Shown here: positions 23,258 to 32,749 of the stretch, in pieces | How positions within the stretch are numbered: position 1 is the first letter of the stretch | Layout: each line of letters starts with the position of its first letter | Assembly: GCF_900109545.1 (NCBI RefSeq) | Contig: NZ_FOAP01000002.1 | Location: 62,001 to 126,000, forward strand | Direction: 5' to 3' | Length of the DNA: 64,000 bases | From: Stigmatella aurantiaca | GTDB taxonomy: Bacteria; Myxococcota; Myxococcia; Myxococcales; Myxococcaceae | The notes under the pieces: generated by a model | Seen by the model: only the letters and a program-made list of their open reading frames with translations | Database searches by the model: none | What the model was told of the DNA's origin: nothing | Translations under genes and position numbers: made by a program

Positions 23258-24607
23258 CTACATGGCGAAGCCGACGGCCACGTTGGTGACGAGCTTTTTC
23301 GTGTCCGGAGATCGGATCAACTCGAAACCCACGGCGGGGATCGCCAGATTTCTCAGGTAAGCGCGCAAACCCACCCCCGGGGCGACATATCGGGTGGGGT
23401 GGCTGTTCCAGCGTGTGGCACCGACATCCACGAAGGCGTGGGCGGTGAAGGTGGCGAAGCGCGGGCTCCAGAGGGGGGCCTGGTACTCGACGGTGAGCAT
23501 GCCCGCCTCCTCGGCCCACAGGCCCGCGTTGACGAAGCCGCGGCTTCCGGTGCGGCCTCCCAGCAGCACCGCGTCCAGCGTGGGGTCGCCGTTCGAGCGC
23601 TCGTAGGCCCCGCTGAAGGTGAGGGAGTGGTTGCTGAACACCGCCTGGGTGTAGCTGGCGCCCAGGGACACCTGGCGCAGGTCTCGCGCGGAGCCGAGGA
23701 AGTTCAGCCCCTCGCGGTAGCGCACGCGGGCCGAGAGCCCCTCATTGAAATAGAAGTGGAAGTCCTGGCCCTGGTACTCCGCCGCCACCGTCACCCCGTG
23801 CACATCGCTCCGGGGCGGCGAGAGCGTGTAGCCCTCCCGGACGGAAGGGCGGTTGGTGAGGCTGAACCAGCCGGCGCCCACGTTCAACTCGGGCGTCAGC
23901 TGGTAGCCCAGCACCCCTCCGAAATCCAGGCGCTGGTCCTCATAGCTGTCGGCGATGGCGTCGTCCTGGTAGCGCTCGCGATCCGCCCGGGAGAAGAGGA
24001 ACGAGAGATCTCCTGTCCAGCGGCTGCCGAGGATGCCGGGATCCTTATAGAGGGCAAAGGCACTGCCGCCCCGGTTGGAGATGATGCCGCCGCCCACCAG
24101 CACCTTGTTGAGGCCGAGCAGGTTGGACTCCAGGGCGAAGATGCCGGCCTGCCACCGGTTCTTGCCGCTGGAGAAGAAGGGCACGGGCAGGAGCGTCCAG
24201 CGCTCCTCCACCACCACGTGGAGCACCACGCCGGTGCTGCCCGGCTGGGTGAGCACCTCCACGCTCTTGAAGAGCTTGAGGTTGAGCAGCCGCCGCTTCA
24301 GCTCGCCCTGCATGTCGGGCTTCACCGCATCGCCCGGGGCCACGCGCAGCGCGCGCAGGATGACGAAGTCCTGGGTGCGCGTGTTGCCTTTGACTTCGAT
24401 CCGCTCGACGCGGCTGTCCTCTTCCTCGCGCGAAGCCGCTTCCGGGACGGAAGGGGCGGCCTCGGCGGGAGGCAGGGCCTCTTCGAGCACCTCCGGCACG
24501 GGCTCCTGCGCCCCCGAAGTCACCGGGGCCAGCACCGCCACGGAAGCCGTGGCGGTGAGGGTGCGCAGCCAACGGACAGACACCGGGTGGGGATGTGTCT
24601 TCACCAT
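23258..24607 (-). CDS. Omp85/BamA-like outer-membrane beta-barrel protein
   Basis: A 449-aa protein with a signal peptide (about residues 1-33) and an acidic Pro-rich spacer. One POTRA-like domain follows (about 66-135, beginning RVERIEVKGNTRTQ), then a C-terminal barrel with alternating polar/hydrophobic strands. The barrel contains GGRTGSRGF and a final strand ending VAVGFAM. BamA has five POTRAs and is near 800 aa, so this is a short Omp85-family member, of the kind used for surface assembly or secretion of particular partners. It lies 24 bases downstream of the TolC gene and probably shares its transcript. What it inserts or secretes is unknown. Confidence 0.8.
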   Translation of the reverse strand: MVKTHPHPVSVRWLRTLTATASVAVLAPVTSGAQEPVPEVLEEALPPAEAAPSVPEAASREEEDSRVERIEVKGNTRTQDFVILRALRVAPGDAVKPDMQGELKRRLLNLKLFKSVEVLTQPGSTGVVLHVVVEERWTLLPVPFFSSGKNRWQAGIFALESNLLGLNKVLVGGGIISNRGGSAFALYKDPGILGSRWTGDLSFLFSRADRERYQDDAIADSYEDQRLDFGGVLGYQLTPELNVGAGWFSLTNRPSVREGYTLSPPRSDVHGVTVAAEYQGQDFHFYFNEGLSARVRYREGLNFLGSARDLRQVSLGASYTQAVFSNHSLTFSGAYERSNGDPTLDAVLLGGRTGSRGFVNAGLWAEEAGMLTVEYQAPLWSPRFATFTAHAFVDVGATRWNSHPTRYVAPGVGLRAYLRNLAIPAVGFELIRSPDTKKLVTNVAVGFAM

Positions 24608-24631: not shown

Positions 24632-26077
24632 TTAACGCGCGGAGGACTTCACGGGCTCCGGCATGTCGGAGGGCTCGGCCAGGCTGTTGCCGGTGGGATC
24701 GAACAGCCCCATGGCCCGGGCCAGCGCCAGCCGCGACAGCCGGAGGTTGAGCTCCTCGGCCACGGCCGACAGCTCCGCGGCGGCCAGCGACGCGTTGATG
24801 TCCGTCACCTGGAGGTAGGTGGCGGCGCCCGCCTCGAAGCTCTCCTTGGTGAGGCGCGCCGTCTCCCGGGCGATCTTCACCCGGTCTTCGGCCGTTTTGA
24901 GGTTGACCTCGGAGGTGCCGAGCTCCAGCGCCGCGCGGCGCACCTCGTCGCGCGCCCGCTGCTCGGCGCCACGCAGGTTGGCGTTGGCCTCGGCGATCTT
25001 CGCCGAGCCCTCGCGGATGTTGGCCTCGCGCAGGCCGCCGTCGAACAGCGTCCAGGAGAGCGCCAGGCCCGCGGTCCAGGCCGTGGTCTGCCCGGTGAGG
25101 CCCGCGGCGTTGCTCGCGGTGAAGCCGCCGGTGGCGTAGAGGTTGGGGAAGTACTGGAAGATGTACTGCCGGCGGCCGAGGCGGGCGATGTCCACGCTGA
25201 GGCGGGCGGCGCCCACGTCCTGGCGCTTGTCGAGCGCCGTCTGCTCCGCGGTCTCCGGGTTGGCCGCCTCGGCGGGCACGGCGACCTCGGGTTCACTGGG
25301 CGGGGCCACGTCGAAGTCCACGGGGCGCGCGAGCAGCGCCGCCAGCGAGCTGCGGGCGGAGGCATAGGAGTTGCGGCTGCGGACCAGCTCCTGCTCGGCC
25401 TGCTTGCGGTCCAGCGTCGCGCGCAGCACGGCCAAGCGCTCCACGTCACCGACGTCGAAGCGCACCTGGGCATCGCGCTCGAAGCCGCGGCGCACCTCGA
25501 GCAGCTGCTCCTGGACGGCGAGCGAGTCCCGGAGGCTCGCGGCCCCCAGGTAGGCCTGTGCCACGGCGAAGAGCAGCTGCCGGCGCGCATCCTCCACGGT
25601 CAGGGCCGCGACGCGCTCGCCCAGGTAGGCGCTCTGGATGGCGGGCCACAGCTGCGGGACGATCAGCGCCTGCCGCAGGGTGCCCTGCGCGCCGAGCTGG
25701 TTGGCCTGCTGGATGGCGACGGGGGGCTGGTCCGGGAGGAGCGGAATCAGCACTTCCTGCTGCCGCGTGTAGGAGGCGTTGAGGACGATGTTGGGCAGGT
25801 AGCCCGACCAGGCCTTGTTGCTGAGCTCATCGGCCTGGCGCAGCCGGGCACGGGCGGCCTCCAGGCTCGGGTTCTGCTTCTCCGCCAGGTTGATGGCCTG
25901 CTCGAAGGTGAGCACGGGCAGCGAGGGGGCCGTGGTGGAGGAGGGCGCCGTGGGCGAGGCGGCGGCGGCTTCTGGAGAAGAGGGTGCCGCTGCTTCCGGG
26001 GCCTCCCGGGTGGGAGCGTCGGAGGCGCTGGGTGCCTGGGTCAACAAGAGGCCGGACAGGAGGGTGCGGATAAACAT
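24632..26077 (-). CDS. TolC-family outer-membrane efflux channel
   Basis: Outer-membrane/periplasmic channel component (481 aa) of the tripartite RND efflux system encoded upstream. A short signal segment (MFIRTLLSGLLL) and a Pro/Ala/Ser-rich stretch to residue about 55 precede two long repeats of helical hairpins with Ala/Glu/Arg-rich heptads, as in OEP-domain proteins. LTFEQAINLAEKQNPSLEAA is the family-typical first helix. The frame runs upstream to 26173, but ATG at 26077 is where the signal peptide begins. It is separated from the MarR gene by 102 bases with a hairpin, and from the Omp85-like gene by 24 bases. Confidence 0.88.
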   Translation of the reverse strand: MFIRTLLSGLLLTQAPSASDAPTREAPEAAAPSSPEAAAASPTAPSSTTAPSLPVLTFEQAINLAEKQNPSLEAARARLRQADELSNKAWSGYLPNIVLNASYTRQQEVLIPLLPDQPPVAIQQANQLGAQGTLRQALIVPQLWPAIQSAYLGERVAALTVEDARRQLLFAVAQAYLGAASLRDSLAVQEQLLEVRRGFERDAQVRFDVGDVERLAVLRATLDRKQAEQELVRSRNSYASARSSLAALLARPVDFDVAPPSEPEVAVPAEAANPETAEQTALDKRQDVGAARLSVDIARLGRRQYIFQYFPNLYATGGFTASNAAGLTGQTTAWTAGLALSWTLFDGGLREANIREGSAKIAEANANLRGAEQRARDEVRRAALELGTSEVNLKTAEDRVKIARETARLTKESFEAGAATYLQVTDINASLAAAELSAVAEELNLRLSRLALARAMGLFDPTGNSLAEPSDMPEPVKSSAR

Positions 26078-26128
26078 AAAGGTCGAGAGACGGCTTCGAG
26101 GAAAGGAAGAGGATGCACAGGGGGCGCT

Positions 26129-26151
26129 GCGGGCCCTTTGCAGGGACCCGC
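26129..26151 (-). other. Hairpin between marR-like and tolC-like genes
   Basis: GCGGGCCCT and AGGGACCCGC can pair around a TTGC loop with one bulged base. On the transcript it lies just upstream of the TolC start. It may tune relative expression of pump and channel genes (partial termination or mRNA processing), or simply reflect high GC. No T-tract is present. Confidence 0.35.
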
Positions 26152-26179
26152 TCCAAGCGCCGGGCTGGACCAACGGGGG

Positions 26180-26721
26180 CTAGGTATCGACAGGCTGCGG
26201 GGCGCAGCCGGTCTGTTTCGCGCTCATACCCTGGATGAGACGCTCGACGATGTCGAAGAGCGCGGTCTGATAGTGGGGCTCCAGCATGCCGAGAAGATTG
26301 CCGAGCCCCGTCTCGATGAGGGTGGTGATCTGCGCGTAGAGCTTCTGGCCCTCCGCGGTGAGCTGGATGGAGACGCTGCGCCGGTCTTCTGGCGAGCGTG
26401 TCCGCTCGACGAAATCCATCTTCTCGAGCCGGTCGACGACCCCGGTGATGCTCTTGTCGTGGATGGCCGCGCGCCGCGCGAGCACGCCGATGTGCAGCGG
26501 CCCCTCATACCCCAGCCACATGATGACGTGGAACTGGGGCGAGCTGAGCTGCAGGTTCTCGCACAGCAGCGAGATGGGATCCCTCAACATCGAGCGGGTG
26601 CGGCCAGCCCGCATCAGCATCTCGTGGAGGCGGGAACCCATGTCGCGCAGGTGGGCAGGCAGCTCCGGCGCGGAGGACTGCTCCGGCGCCGGGGCCTGCT
26701 CTGGCGACAGCGGGGTTTCAA

Positions 26722-26725
<4 letters not shown>
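26180..26725 (-). CDS. MarR-family transcriptional regulator
   Basis: A 181-aa DNA-binding regulator. A Pro/Glu-rich leader (1-25) precedes the MarR winged helix. The recognition-helix region is ARRAAIHDKSITGVVDRLEK, followed by the wing VERTRSPEDRRSV, the DxR signature of the family. Dimerisation helices flank it. Its start overlaps the stop of the RND pump gene (ATGA), so it is made from the efflux transcript and is the obvious local autoregulator. A 25-bp near-perfect inverted repeat over the operon promoter (31121-31145) is the likely binding site. MarR proteins usually release DNA when they bind a phenolic or drug-like ligand. Confidence 0.93.
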
Positions 26726-29862
<3,137 letters not shown>

Positions 29863-29900: not shown

Positions 29901-31022
29901 TCACTGCACCACGCGGACGGCGGTGCCGTCCTTCATCGGAAGGCTCGCGTCGGCAACGACTTGCTCCTGCGAGGACAGCCCTTCCACCACGCGTACATAG
30001 CCGGGCAGCACGCGCTGGACCTTCACGTCGCGCCGCTGCACCTTGCCGTCCTGCACCACCCACACGAAGCCCTGCTGGCCCTTGCTGCTCACCGCCTGGG
30101 CGGGCAGGAACAGGCCCTGGTCCCCGGCGGCCTCACCCGCGACGGCCGAGAAGTCGAGCTCCACGAGCGCGCCGGGGCGCAGGGTGGCCTCGGACTTGCC
30201 GGGCACCACGTCCGCGAGCACCTCCACGGTGCGGCTCTGCGGATCGATGACGGCGCCCAGGTTGGCCACCTTCACCTCGAAGCGCGCGCCGCTCGGGTTG
30301 AGCGTGCCCTGGGCAACGGTGCCCTGCTGGATGCGGTCGATGATGGCCTCGGGCACCAGCACGCGCACCTCCAGGCCCTCGGTGTCCACGATGCCGAAGA
30401 TGTTGGTGCTGGTGTTGACCATGTCCCCCACGTTCTTGTTGCGCGCGGTGATGACGCCGTCGAACGGGGCCACGATGCTCGCGTCCTTCAGCATCTGCTG
30501 GGCGTTCTTGTAGGCGGCCGAGGCCTGGGCCGCCTGGGCCTGGGCCTGGCGGAAGCCCACCTCGGCCTTGTCCAGCCCCGACTGGGCCAGGCTGCCCGAG
30601 GTGGCGAGCTTGCGGGCCCGCTCCACGTCAATGGTGGCGCCATCCAGCAGCGCCGCGGCGGCGGACCGGGCGGCGGCCGCCTGCTCCACGGCGATGTGCA
30701 GGGTGTCGGTGTCCAGCTGGGCCAGGACCTGGCCCTTCTTCACCTTGTCACCCACCTTGACGAGCACGCGGGTGAGGGGACCCGAGGCCCGGGCGCTCAG
30801 CGTGGCCTCCTGCTTGGAGCGCAGCTGACCCGTCGCCTGCATCACGTTGGCCTCCAGCTTCGTGGCCGGGGCAATGGCCTTCACGCCCAGGGCGTTGGAC
30901 GTCTGGGTGGCGTCAGGAGCGGGCAGGGCCGCCTTGGCGCTTGCGCCGCCCGAGCACCCACCCGCCGCCACCGCCACCATCGCCGCCGCCATCACTGCCT
31001 TCACTCCGATGCGCTTCGTCAC
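29901..31022 (-). CDS. RND efflux membrane fusion protein (HlyD/AcrA-like lipoprotein)
   Basis: Periplasmic adaptor (373 aa) linking the RND pump to TolC. A signal peptide with lipobox-like AAGGC (Cys23) predicts a lipid anchor. A lipoyl-like half-motif (VLVKVGDKVKKGQVLAQLD) is followed by an Ala-rich coiled hairpin, the second half lipoyl motif (IVAPFDGVITARNKNVGD), a beta-barrel domain and a membrane-proximal C-terminal domain. It is first in the efflux operon; the promoter and inverted repeat lie 84-123 bases upstream. The lipoyl and barrel motifs look intact, so a working adaptor is expected. Confidence 0.94.
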   Translation of the reverse strand: MTKRIGVKAVMAAAMVAVAAGGCSGGASAKAALPAPDATQTSNALGVKAIAPATKLEANVMQATGQLRSKQEATLSARASGPLTRVLVKVGDKVKKGQVLAQLDTDTLHIAVEQAAAARSAAAALLDGATIDVERARKLATSGSLAQSGLDKAEVGFRQAQAQAAQASAAYKNAQQMLKDASIVAPFDGVITARNKNVGDMVNTSTNIFGIVDTEGLEVRVLVPEAIIDRIQQGTVAQGTLNPSGARFEVKVANLGAVIDPQSRTVEVLADVVPGKSEATLRPGALVELDFSAVAGEAAGDQGLFLPAQAVSSKGQQGFVWVVQDGKVQRRDVKVQRVLPGYVRVVEGLSSQEQVVADASLPMKDGTAVRVVQ

Positions 31023-31105
31023 AGTCGTCCCGCTCCTGCCGGTCTTGCCTCGGGAGATTTCTCCCGGAACCCCGGCGATACATCAGCCAAAAGATCTTGG
31101 ACGGG

Positions 31106-31133
31106 GATATACCCCAATCTAGATATCCTGCAA
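31106..31133 (-). promoter_or_regulatory. Candidate sigma-70-type promoter of the efflux operon
   Basis: On the minus strand TTGCAG (31133-31128) and TATATC (31111-31106) are separated by 16 bases and point toward the membrane fusion protein gene 84 bases away. It stands out because the surrounding genome has very few AT-rich blocks. The -35 box lies inside the inverted repeat 31121-31145, as expected for repression. Confidence 0.5.
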
Positions 31134-31145
31134 TACAGAATATCT
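31121..31145. promoter_or_regulatory. Inverted-repeat operator, probable MarR binding site
   Basis: Arms AGATATCCTG (31121-31130) and CAGAATATCT (31136-31145) match at 9 of 10 positions around a CAATA spacer. Its size and symmetry suit a MarR or TetR dimer, and it covers the -35 region of the efflux promoter. The operon encodes its own MarR protein, the likely ligand. A GGGG-ATATA-CCCC repeat (31103-31115) and an AAGATCTT palindrome (31091-31098) lie just downstream on the transcript. Confidence 0.6.
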
Positions 31146-31411: not shown

Positions 31412-32749
31412 ATGTCCGCTCCCCTCGAACCGAATGGACCGCGTGTGCGCGCGCGGGAGCTGGGTCTTCCCCTGGGCCGCTTCAAGCCGGGCCGCTACAA
31501 CGCCATCACCGACGTGGAGGGGGTACTGGTCGGCCACTGCACGCTCATCCATGGCGAGGGCCCCCTGCGGCCCGGCCACGGCCCCGTGCGCACGGGCGTC
31601 ACCGCCATCCTGCCCAACAACGGCAACATCTTCATGGAGCGCATGAGCGGCGGCGGCTTCGTGCTCAACGGGGCGGGCGAGGTGTCCGGAATGACCCAGC
31701 TCATGGAGTGGGGGCTGGTGGAGACGCCCATCCTGCTCACCAACACCATGGCGGTGGGGGCAGTGTCGGACGGGGTGGCGCGCTACCTGGTGGAGCGCTA
31801 CCCGGGCATTGGGGACGAGCTGGACGTCATCATCCCTATCGTCGGCGAGTGCGACGACAGCTACCTCAATGACATCTCCGGCCGGCACGTGCGCAACCAG
31901 CACGTGCTCCAGGCCATCCAGAACGCGAAGACGGGCCCGGTGCCCGAGGGCAACGTGGGCGGCGGCACCGGCATGGTGACGTGCGACTTCAAGGGCGGCA
32001 TCGGCACCGCCTCGCGCAAGCTGCCCGAGGCGCTGGGGGGCTACACCCTGGGCGTGCTCGTCATGTCCAACTTCGGGAAGATGCACAACCTGCGGGTGGG
32101 CGGCCTGCCCGTGGGGGAGGTGCTGGCCGAGAAGTTCAAGGACGTGCCCCGGCGCGGGCAGACGTACGGCTCCATCATCGCGGTGGTGGCCACGGACGCG
32201 CCCCTGCTCAGCCATCAAATCAACCGCCTGTGCAAGCGCGTGGGGCTGGGCATTGGCCGGGTGGGCAGCTACGCGGCGCACGGCTCGGGAGAAATCGTCG
32301 TCGGCTTCTCCACGGCCAACATCATCCCCCGGCGCACCCAGAAGATGGTCTACAAGATGAAGATCCTCCTGGATCAGCGCCTGGACCCCCTCTACGAGGC
32401 GGTCATGGAGGCCACGGAGGAGGCCATCCTCAACGCCATGTGCATGGCCGAGCCCATGACGGGGGTGAACGGCAACTTCTGCCCGGCGCTGCCGCTGGAC
32501 GAGGTCCGCCGCTTCGTGGACGCCTGCCGCCCCATCTTCGCCTCGGTGAAGAAGCGCCTGGCGCAGAGCAGCGCCCCGGCCTCCCGGGAAAAGCCCCTGG
32601 ATGTGGACAAAGAGGGGGATGTGCGGGTGGCCGCGGCCCTGCCGACCGAGGTCCGGGGCGCCGAGGGCATTCCGTACCCGACCCGGCCCGCCCCCGAAGA
32701 CACGGACGATACGGAGGGTTCCGCTTCCGGGGGATCTTCTGATACGTAG
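31412..32749 (+). CDS. P1 family (DmpA-type) self-processing aminopeptidase
   Basis: An N-terminal nucleophile hydrolase of 445 aa, related to the L-aminopeptidase/D-esterase DmpA and beta-aminopeptidases. The precursor is expected to cut itself before the nucleophile Ser254 in YGSIIAVVATDAP, giving alpha and beta chains; the matching DmpA segment is Gly-Ser-Ile-Ile-Val-Val. Other family landmarks are GRYNAITDVEGVLVGH near the N-terminus, GNVGGGTGMVTCDFKGGIG and SNFGKMHNLRVGG. About 55 C-terminal residues after the catalytic domain are Pro/Glu/Asp-rich and probably disordered. No signal peptide is seen, so it acts in the cytoplasm, on N-terminal small residues or beta-amino acyl peptides. Confidence 0.92.
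   Translation: MSAPLEPNGPRVRARELGLPLGRFKPGRYNAITDVEGVLVGHCTLIHGEGPLRPGHGPVRTGVTAILPNNGNIFMERMSGGGFVLNGAGEVSGMTQLMEWGLVETPILLTNTMAVGAVSDGVARYLVERYPGIGDELDVIIPIVGECDDSYLNDISGRHVRNQHVLQAIQNAKTGPVPEGNVGGGTGMVTCDFKGGIGTASRKLPEALGGYTLGVLVMSNFGKMHNLRVGGLPVGEVLAEKFKDVPRRGQTYGSIIAVVATDAPLLSHQINRLCKRVGLGIGRVGSYAAHGSGEIVVGFSTANIIPRRTQKMVYKMKILLDQRLDPLYEAVMEATEEAILNAMCMAEPMTGVNGNFCPALPLDEVRRFVDACRPIFASVKKRLAQSSAPASREKPLDVDKEGDVRVAAALPTEVRGAEGIPYPTRPAPEDTDDTEGSASGGSSDT

Follow-up and report, generated by a model that had tools for sequence, protein, structure and literature searches.

A conserved palindrome in front of a Stigmatella aurantiaca RND efflux operon and its probable role as operator of the operon's own MarR protein

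In Stigmatella aurantiaca, a stretch of 64,000 nucleotides of contig NZ_FOAP01000002.1 (positions 62,001 to 126,000; hereafter the window) carries an RND efflux pump operon whose third gene encodes a MarR-family protein. A first reading made from the letters alone, here called the sequence-only reading, had described a near-perfect inverted repeat around CAATA in front of this operon and had proposed it as the operator of the operon's own MarR. The locus thus raises the question of whether the repeat is a regulatory site and, if so, which protein binds it. The repeat is present at exactly the place described, as an unstranded 25-base pair (bp) element, AGATATCCTG-CAATA-CAGAATATCT, at 31121 to 31145, with two 10-bp arms that are complementary at nine of 10 positions and a 5-bp spacer. 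Based on its sequence and on its conservation among related operons, the palindrome is probably the operator of a negative-feedback switch, in which MarR would bind and repress the pump operon until released by a ligand.

The most direct evidence is the joint occurrence of the palindrome and marR. The main comparison covered all 78 relatives of the adaptor gene, the first gene of the operon, found at E <= 1e-70 in 96 genomes of the family Myxococcaceae. In 51 of these loci, a marR relative follows downstream at a distance of 3.5-5.5 kb, on the same strand. All 51 contain the palindrome (48 exactly and three with one mismatch when compared with whichever of two consensus forms fits better), which begins 108-142 bp ahead of the extrapolated adaptor start. 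None of the 27 loci without marR contains it, the best place in these showing 5-8 mismatches. MarR is proposed as the binder of the operator because relatives with marR keep the palindrome and relatives without marR lack it, and in this respect the comparison strongly supports the sequence-only reading. Fisher's p for the association is 1.5e-21, which is no true probability since the loci are related. In an earlier set of 35 loci, where the palindrome was allowed at most two mismatches, it was found in 26 of 26 loci with marR and in none of the nine without (best place there at least 7 mismatches); of 80 candidate loci, the first 15 (L060-L074) were used and the rest were dropped as distant, and L051 and L069 represent a single locus. 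One locus of this set, L070, contains the operon of Myxococcus xanthus, a laboratory species. Most of L060-L073 recur in the 96-genome set; the two sets overlap and are not summed. On a tree built from 42 of the 78, marR presence must change twice, with site and gene switching together at both changes.

Both kinds of operon may occur in a single genome. Some genomes hold pump copies of both kinds, among them G072, in which marR accompanies one copy and is missing from two. Four marR-less copies were scanned for the gene upstream of the pump, which encodes a TetR protein in three (L044, L056 and L068) and a different, MarR_2-type protein in L057. The TetR-led copies belong to the same pump family, with adaptor and permease closely related to those of the window, and have neither marR nor the palindrome.

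Taken alone, the repeat is weak evidence because repeats of such quality are common by chance. The window contains 14 repeats with 10-bp arms complementary at nine or more of 10 positions and a 5-bp spacer, compared with 2-11 in 10 first-order shuffles, and at least one such repeat (spacer 0-10 bp) arose in the 389-bp intergenic region in 15.6% of 500 shuffles. The G+C content at the repeat is 32%, versus 70% for the whole window. The significance of the repeat comes from its conservation across relatives. In 25 distinct rows, the information content per position was 1.65 bits in the arms, 1.03 in the spacer and 0.48 in the preceding 45 bp. The 51 loci yield 28 distinct 25-mers, in all of which arm positions 3, 4, 5, 8, 9 and 10 are complementary, and position 9 changes on both sides together (C-G in 23, T-A in five). 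Complementarity is lower at position 1 (18 of 28) and at positions 2 and 7 (25 of 28 each). A symmetric arm pattern of this kind would be expected of a dimer-binding site. Thus, despite the abundance of similar repeats, a chance origin without function is exceedingly improbable, given that 51 of 51 marR operons keep the site, its arms varying symmetrically amid variable flanks. It is likewise scarcely credible that the element serves the S58 peptidase gene that starts divergently at 31412, with which the operon shares the intergenic region: within the 35-locus set, whose upstream flanks differ in length, an S58 gene was found next to the operon in no loci other than the window and L040-L042, whereas all 26 marR loci have the site.

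In L045 and similar loci, a degenerate second copy, AGATAATCGAGTGTCGGTAATTTCT, begins 7 bp past the palindrome, with its centre 32 bp downstream; read by eye, it is perhaps a weak second site. The second-best pattern score of L045-like loci in the 35-locus set is five mismatches, a value given irrespective of position.

The protein proposed to bind the operator, encoded at 26180 to 26725 on the minus strand, matches the MarR domain (PF01047) with 61.4 bits against a cut-off of 24.6, and its helix and wing residues are conserved. D114, R115 and R116, which we take to be the mark of the MarR wing, occur in 51 of 51 MarR proteins. A single-sequence structure model, with a mean predicted local distance difference test score of 59 (too poor to use), has helices at residues 82-85 and 91-102 and strands at 106-110 and 118-122, an arrangement that would be compatible with a winged helix. 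The half-site and the recognition helix vary together across the 51 operons, a CTG half-site accompanying the helix IHDKSITG in five of five cases and a CCG half-site accompanying IT[KRE]KTITG in 46 of 46. The helix accordingly starts with H89-D90-K91-S92 in the CTG type and with T-[KRE]-K-T in the CCG type. One further residue, Cys55 (window positions 26561-26563), is present in 50 of 51 MarR orthologues and could, speculatively, act as an oxidant or redox sensor.

The sequence-only reading had also placed the repeat over the -35 box of a recognisable promoter. The overlap stands for the window, where a -35-like TTGCAG (31128 to 31133, minus strand) lies inside the operator and is followed after 16 bp by a -10-like TATATC (31106 to 31111, minus strand), with transcription predicted to start near 31099. 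As a general feature the overlap does not hold. The arrangement TTGC[AG]G-16 bp-TATAT[CT] with the -35 inside the repeat occurs in six of the 51 marR operons, including that of the window, whereas in the other 45 the repeat ends 2 bp before TTGACA, which is followed after 16 bp by TA[GA]TT[TA] (TAGTTT in 27, TAATTT in 16 and TAGTTA in two). By our own arithmetic, which counts the -10 as positions -12 to -7, the centre of the operator falls at about -34 in the -35-covering type and at about -49 in the TTGACA type. The comparison suggests that the operator stayed constant and the promoter moved. Another palindrome, GGGGATATACCCC, around the -10 (31103-31115), was considered as a second operator and rejected; it is kept in L040 and L042 and broken in L041, L043 and L060.

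Several searches concerned the sequence-only suggestion that the site may recur as the marker of a regulon. The strict pattern, at up to three mismatches, occurs at one place in the S. aurantiaca genome, on which ground a wide regulon was rejected. A relaxed pattern, at up to one mismatch, was found in 53 of the 96 genomes, compared with none of 96 for the reversed control. In S. aurantiaca, it adds one further site (C5:51008-51030; L059:7008-7032), at the start of the gene for a MarR paralog 45% identical to the MarR of the window (C5:51061-51480; L059:7017-7526) and divergent from a type III polyketide synthase gene. This paralog combines a TEKT helix with a CCG-type site. The suggestion therefore survives in a reduced form: the site is a local marker, found once more beside a MarR paralog, and not that of a wide regulon. 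The same arrangement of palindrome, MarR paralog and divergent type III polyketide synthase gene is seen in L172.

In all, 17 further sites were opened, comprising 16 among the matches listed and the second site of S. aurantiaca; some of the 17 are likely orthologues of one another. Eleven of them, the second site of S. aurantiaca included, are at a MarR relative's own gene. In G009 (L181) and G010 (L180), the site stands at the start of a gene row in which marR comes first and is followed by RND pump genes of the same strand. The MarR relatives of L174 (5308-5955) and L177 (6053-6559) have their own palindrome and an Omp85 gene behind them, Omp85 being also the probable last gene of the window's operon; in L177, the MarR relative is divergent from a short-chain dehydrogenase gene. 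At L170:6145, the palindrome of a MarR paralog adjoins a divergent solute-binding protein gene (SBP_bac_11). For palindromes of the same design at L175:5773, L185:6004 and L179:6227, the stretch retrieved contained no MarR relative. Close to each is a gene whose product resembles those at the other two by eye, and a Pfam scan of these proteins in L175 and L179 gave no match. A RoxA-like gene is divergent at L175. These three palindromes are possible distant targets.

A number of observations weigh against the proposed role of the repeat as a MarR operator for repression. The loci are related, their counts are not independent and marR presence changes only twice; in addition, the marR-less L213 has about 130 bp of upstream sequence, too little to judge. 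At arm position 6, only five of 28 distinct sites are complementary, and 22 have G opposite G. The CTG type forms one clade in the MarR tree (long branches flagged), which suggests that half-site and helix changed in a single event. A strict recognition-helix code was weakened by the paralogs of L174 and L177, which combine INDKSITG with CCG-type sites, and at most H89 would track the CTG half-site. The promoter hexamers are weak, and a consensus promoter scan found none at TTGCAG/TATATC; the promoter of the window's operon is weak by consensus and is proposed from conservation. Relative to the promoter, the centre of the site is shifted upstream by about 15 bp in 45 of 51 operons compared with that of the window, a less usual place for a repressor. 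Lastly, six of the 17 further sites have no MarR relative within the 12 kb fetched, and one of these (L183) lies inside a long open reading frame.

Two alternatives draw on these points. In the first, which is unlikely, MarR would bind the repeat as an activator or with a dual function and, sitting immediately before the -35, would assist polymerase, at least in operons of the Myxococcus/Corallococcus type. Such a role would account for the 45 sites that end 2 bp before TTGACA and are followed by a poor -10. The site of the window's lineage, which covers the -35 itself, and the paralog's site in S. aurantiaca, which is at the start of a marR-like gene, are both in keeping with repression. Overall, repression seems to fit the -35-covering promoter type best, while activation or a dual role is possible in the TTGACA type. 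The phylogenetic clustering of the loci and the six sites without a MarR relative nearby would also agree with another dimeric regulator, encoded elsewhere, that binds the repeat, the link to marR then reflecting shared operon ancestry. However, site and marR switch together at both changes in the tree, related sites in other settings are found at the genes of MarR relatives themselves, and half-site and recognition helix differ together, which makes this alternative decidedly improbable.

The preferred reading, an operator for repression by MarR, implies the following course. MarR from the third gene would bind the repeat as a dimer, its recognition helix reading the inner CTG/CAG of each arm and its wing the outer AGATA. 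Because the operator covers the -35 in the lineage of the window, MarR bound there would hold expression of the hlyD-RND-marR-tolC-Omp85 operon at a low level. The signal that frees MarR from the site would be a ligand, perhaps an aromatic or lipophilic toxicant, or an oxidant that acts on Cys55. Pump and MarR would then be made together, and repression would return once the compound is gone.

All genes of the proposed operon are located on the minus strand. The RND efflux periplasmic adaptor (HlyD/MFP; 29901 to 31022), with a GTG start codon at 31022, matches Pfam HlyD_D23 and NCBIfam RND_mfp above their cut-offs (218.7 against 94.9 for the latter). The permease (26722 to 29862) is of the AcrB/AcrD/AcrF family (Pfam ACR_tran, 959 bits); its score of 939.1 against NCBIfam RND_permease_2, a multidrug family, is below the curated cut-off of 1250. 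The marR gene overlaps the permease gene by 4 bp and is followed by a TolC-like outer membrane efflux protein gene (24632 to 26173; Pfam OEP above cut-off), whose listed TTG start may sit upstream of the true start. An Omp85-superfamily outer membrane protein with a POTRA domain (23258 to 24607; Pfam POTRA and Omp85) is the probable last gene. Adaptor, permease, regulator and outer membrane factor adjoin on one strand in the layout of an RND efflux operon, and gaps among the listed open reading frames are at most 38 bp. The five genes presumably form one transcript. Gene order and the Pfam and NCBIfam matches agree with the pump operon with its own MarR gene that had been read from the sequence.

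In Pseudomonas aeruginosa, mexR lies upstream of the pump genes mexAB-oprM and is divergent from them. The operon described here has a different layout, in which marR is the third gene, on the same strand as the pump. MexR chains are nevertheless among the solved structures that match the MarR of the window (1lnw, E 4.9e-8). The best NCBIfam match of this MarR is HpaR, at 54.4 bits, far below the cut-off of 121.2 for that equivalog; the name HpaR implies aromatic degradation genes, whereas marR of the window adjoins pump genes. In a review, MexR is given as a known case of MarR-family control of an RND pump, and MarR sites as 16-20 bp long (PMC6018408); the palindrome here, at 23-25 bp, is longer. 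No paper on this operon was found among the matches listed, judged by title or abstract start. The kind of switch is thus known from MexR, and what appears to be new is a well-conserved further case with clean comparative evidence.

A broader view, conceivable if rather doubtful, is that myxobacteria contain an expanded MarR subfamily, with the window's system as one branch and each member guarding its own palindrome of the same design, in which regulator and half-site change together, the operator stays in place while the promoter shifts by about 15 bp, and paralogs may cross-talk. The second site of S. aurantiaca has a MarR paralog on one side and a divergent type III polyketide synthase gene on the other, so that the pump and the production of a polyketide, perhaps a phenolic lipid, could share a signal family. 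Myxobacteria are predatory and produce antibiotics. With the palindrome and its MarR, an RND pump family of these bacteria gains a precise and testable putative operator and regulator. Its natural variants fall into two types by half-site and two by promoter geometry, and they include paralogs whose sites are related as well as copies with TetR in place of MarR; together they offer a ready set for the study of joint change in repressor and site.
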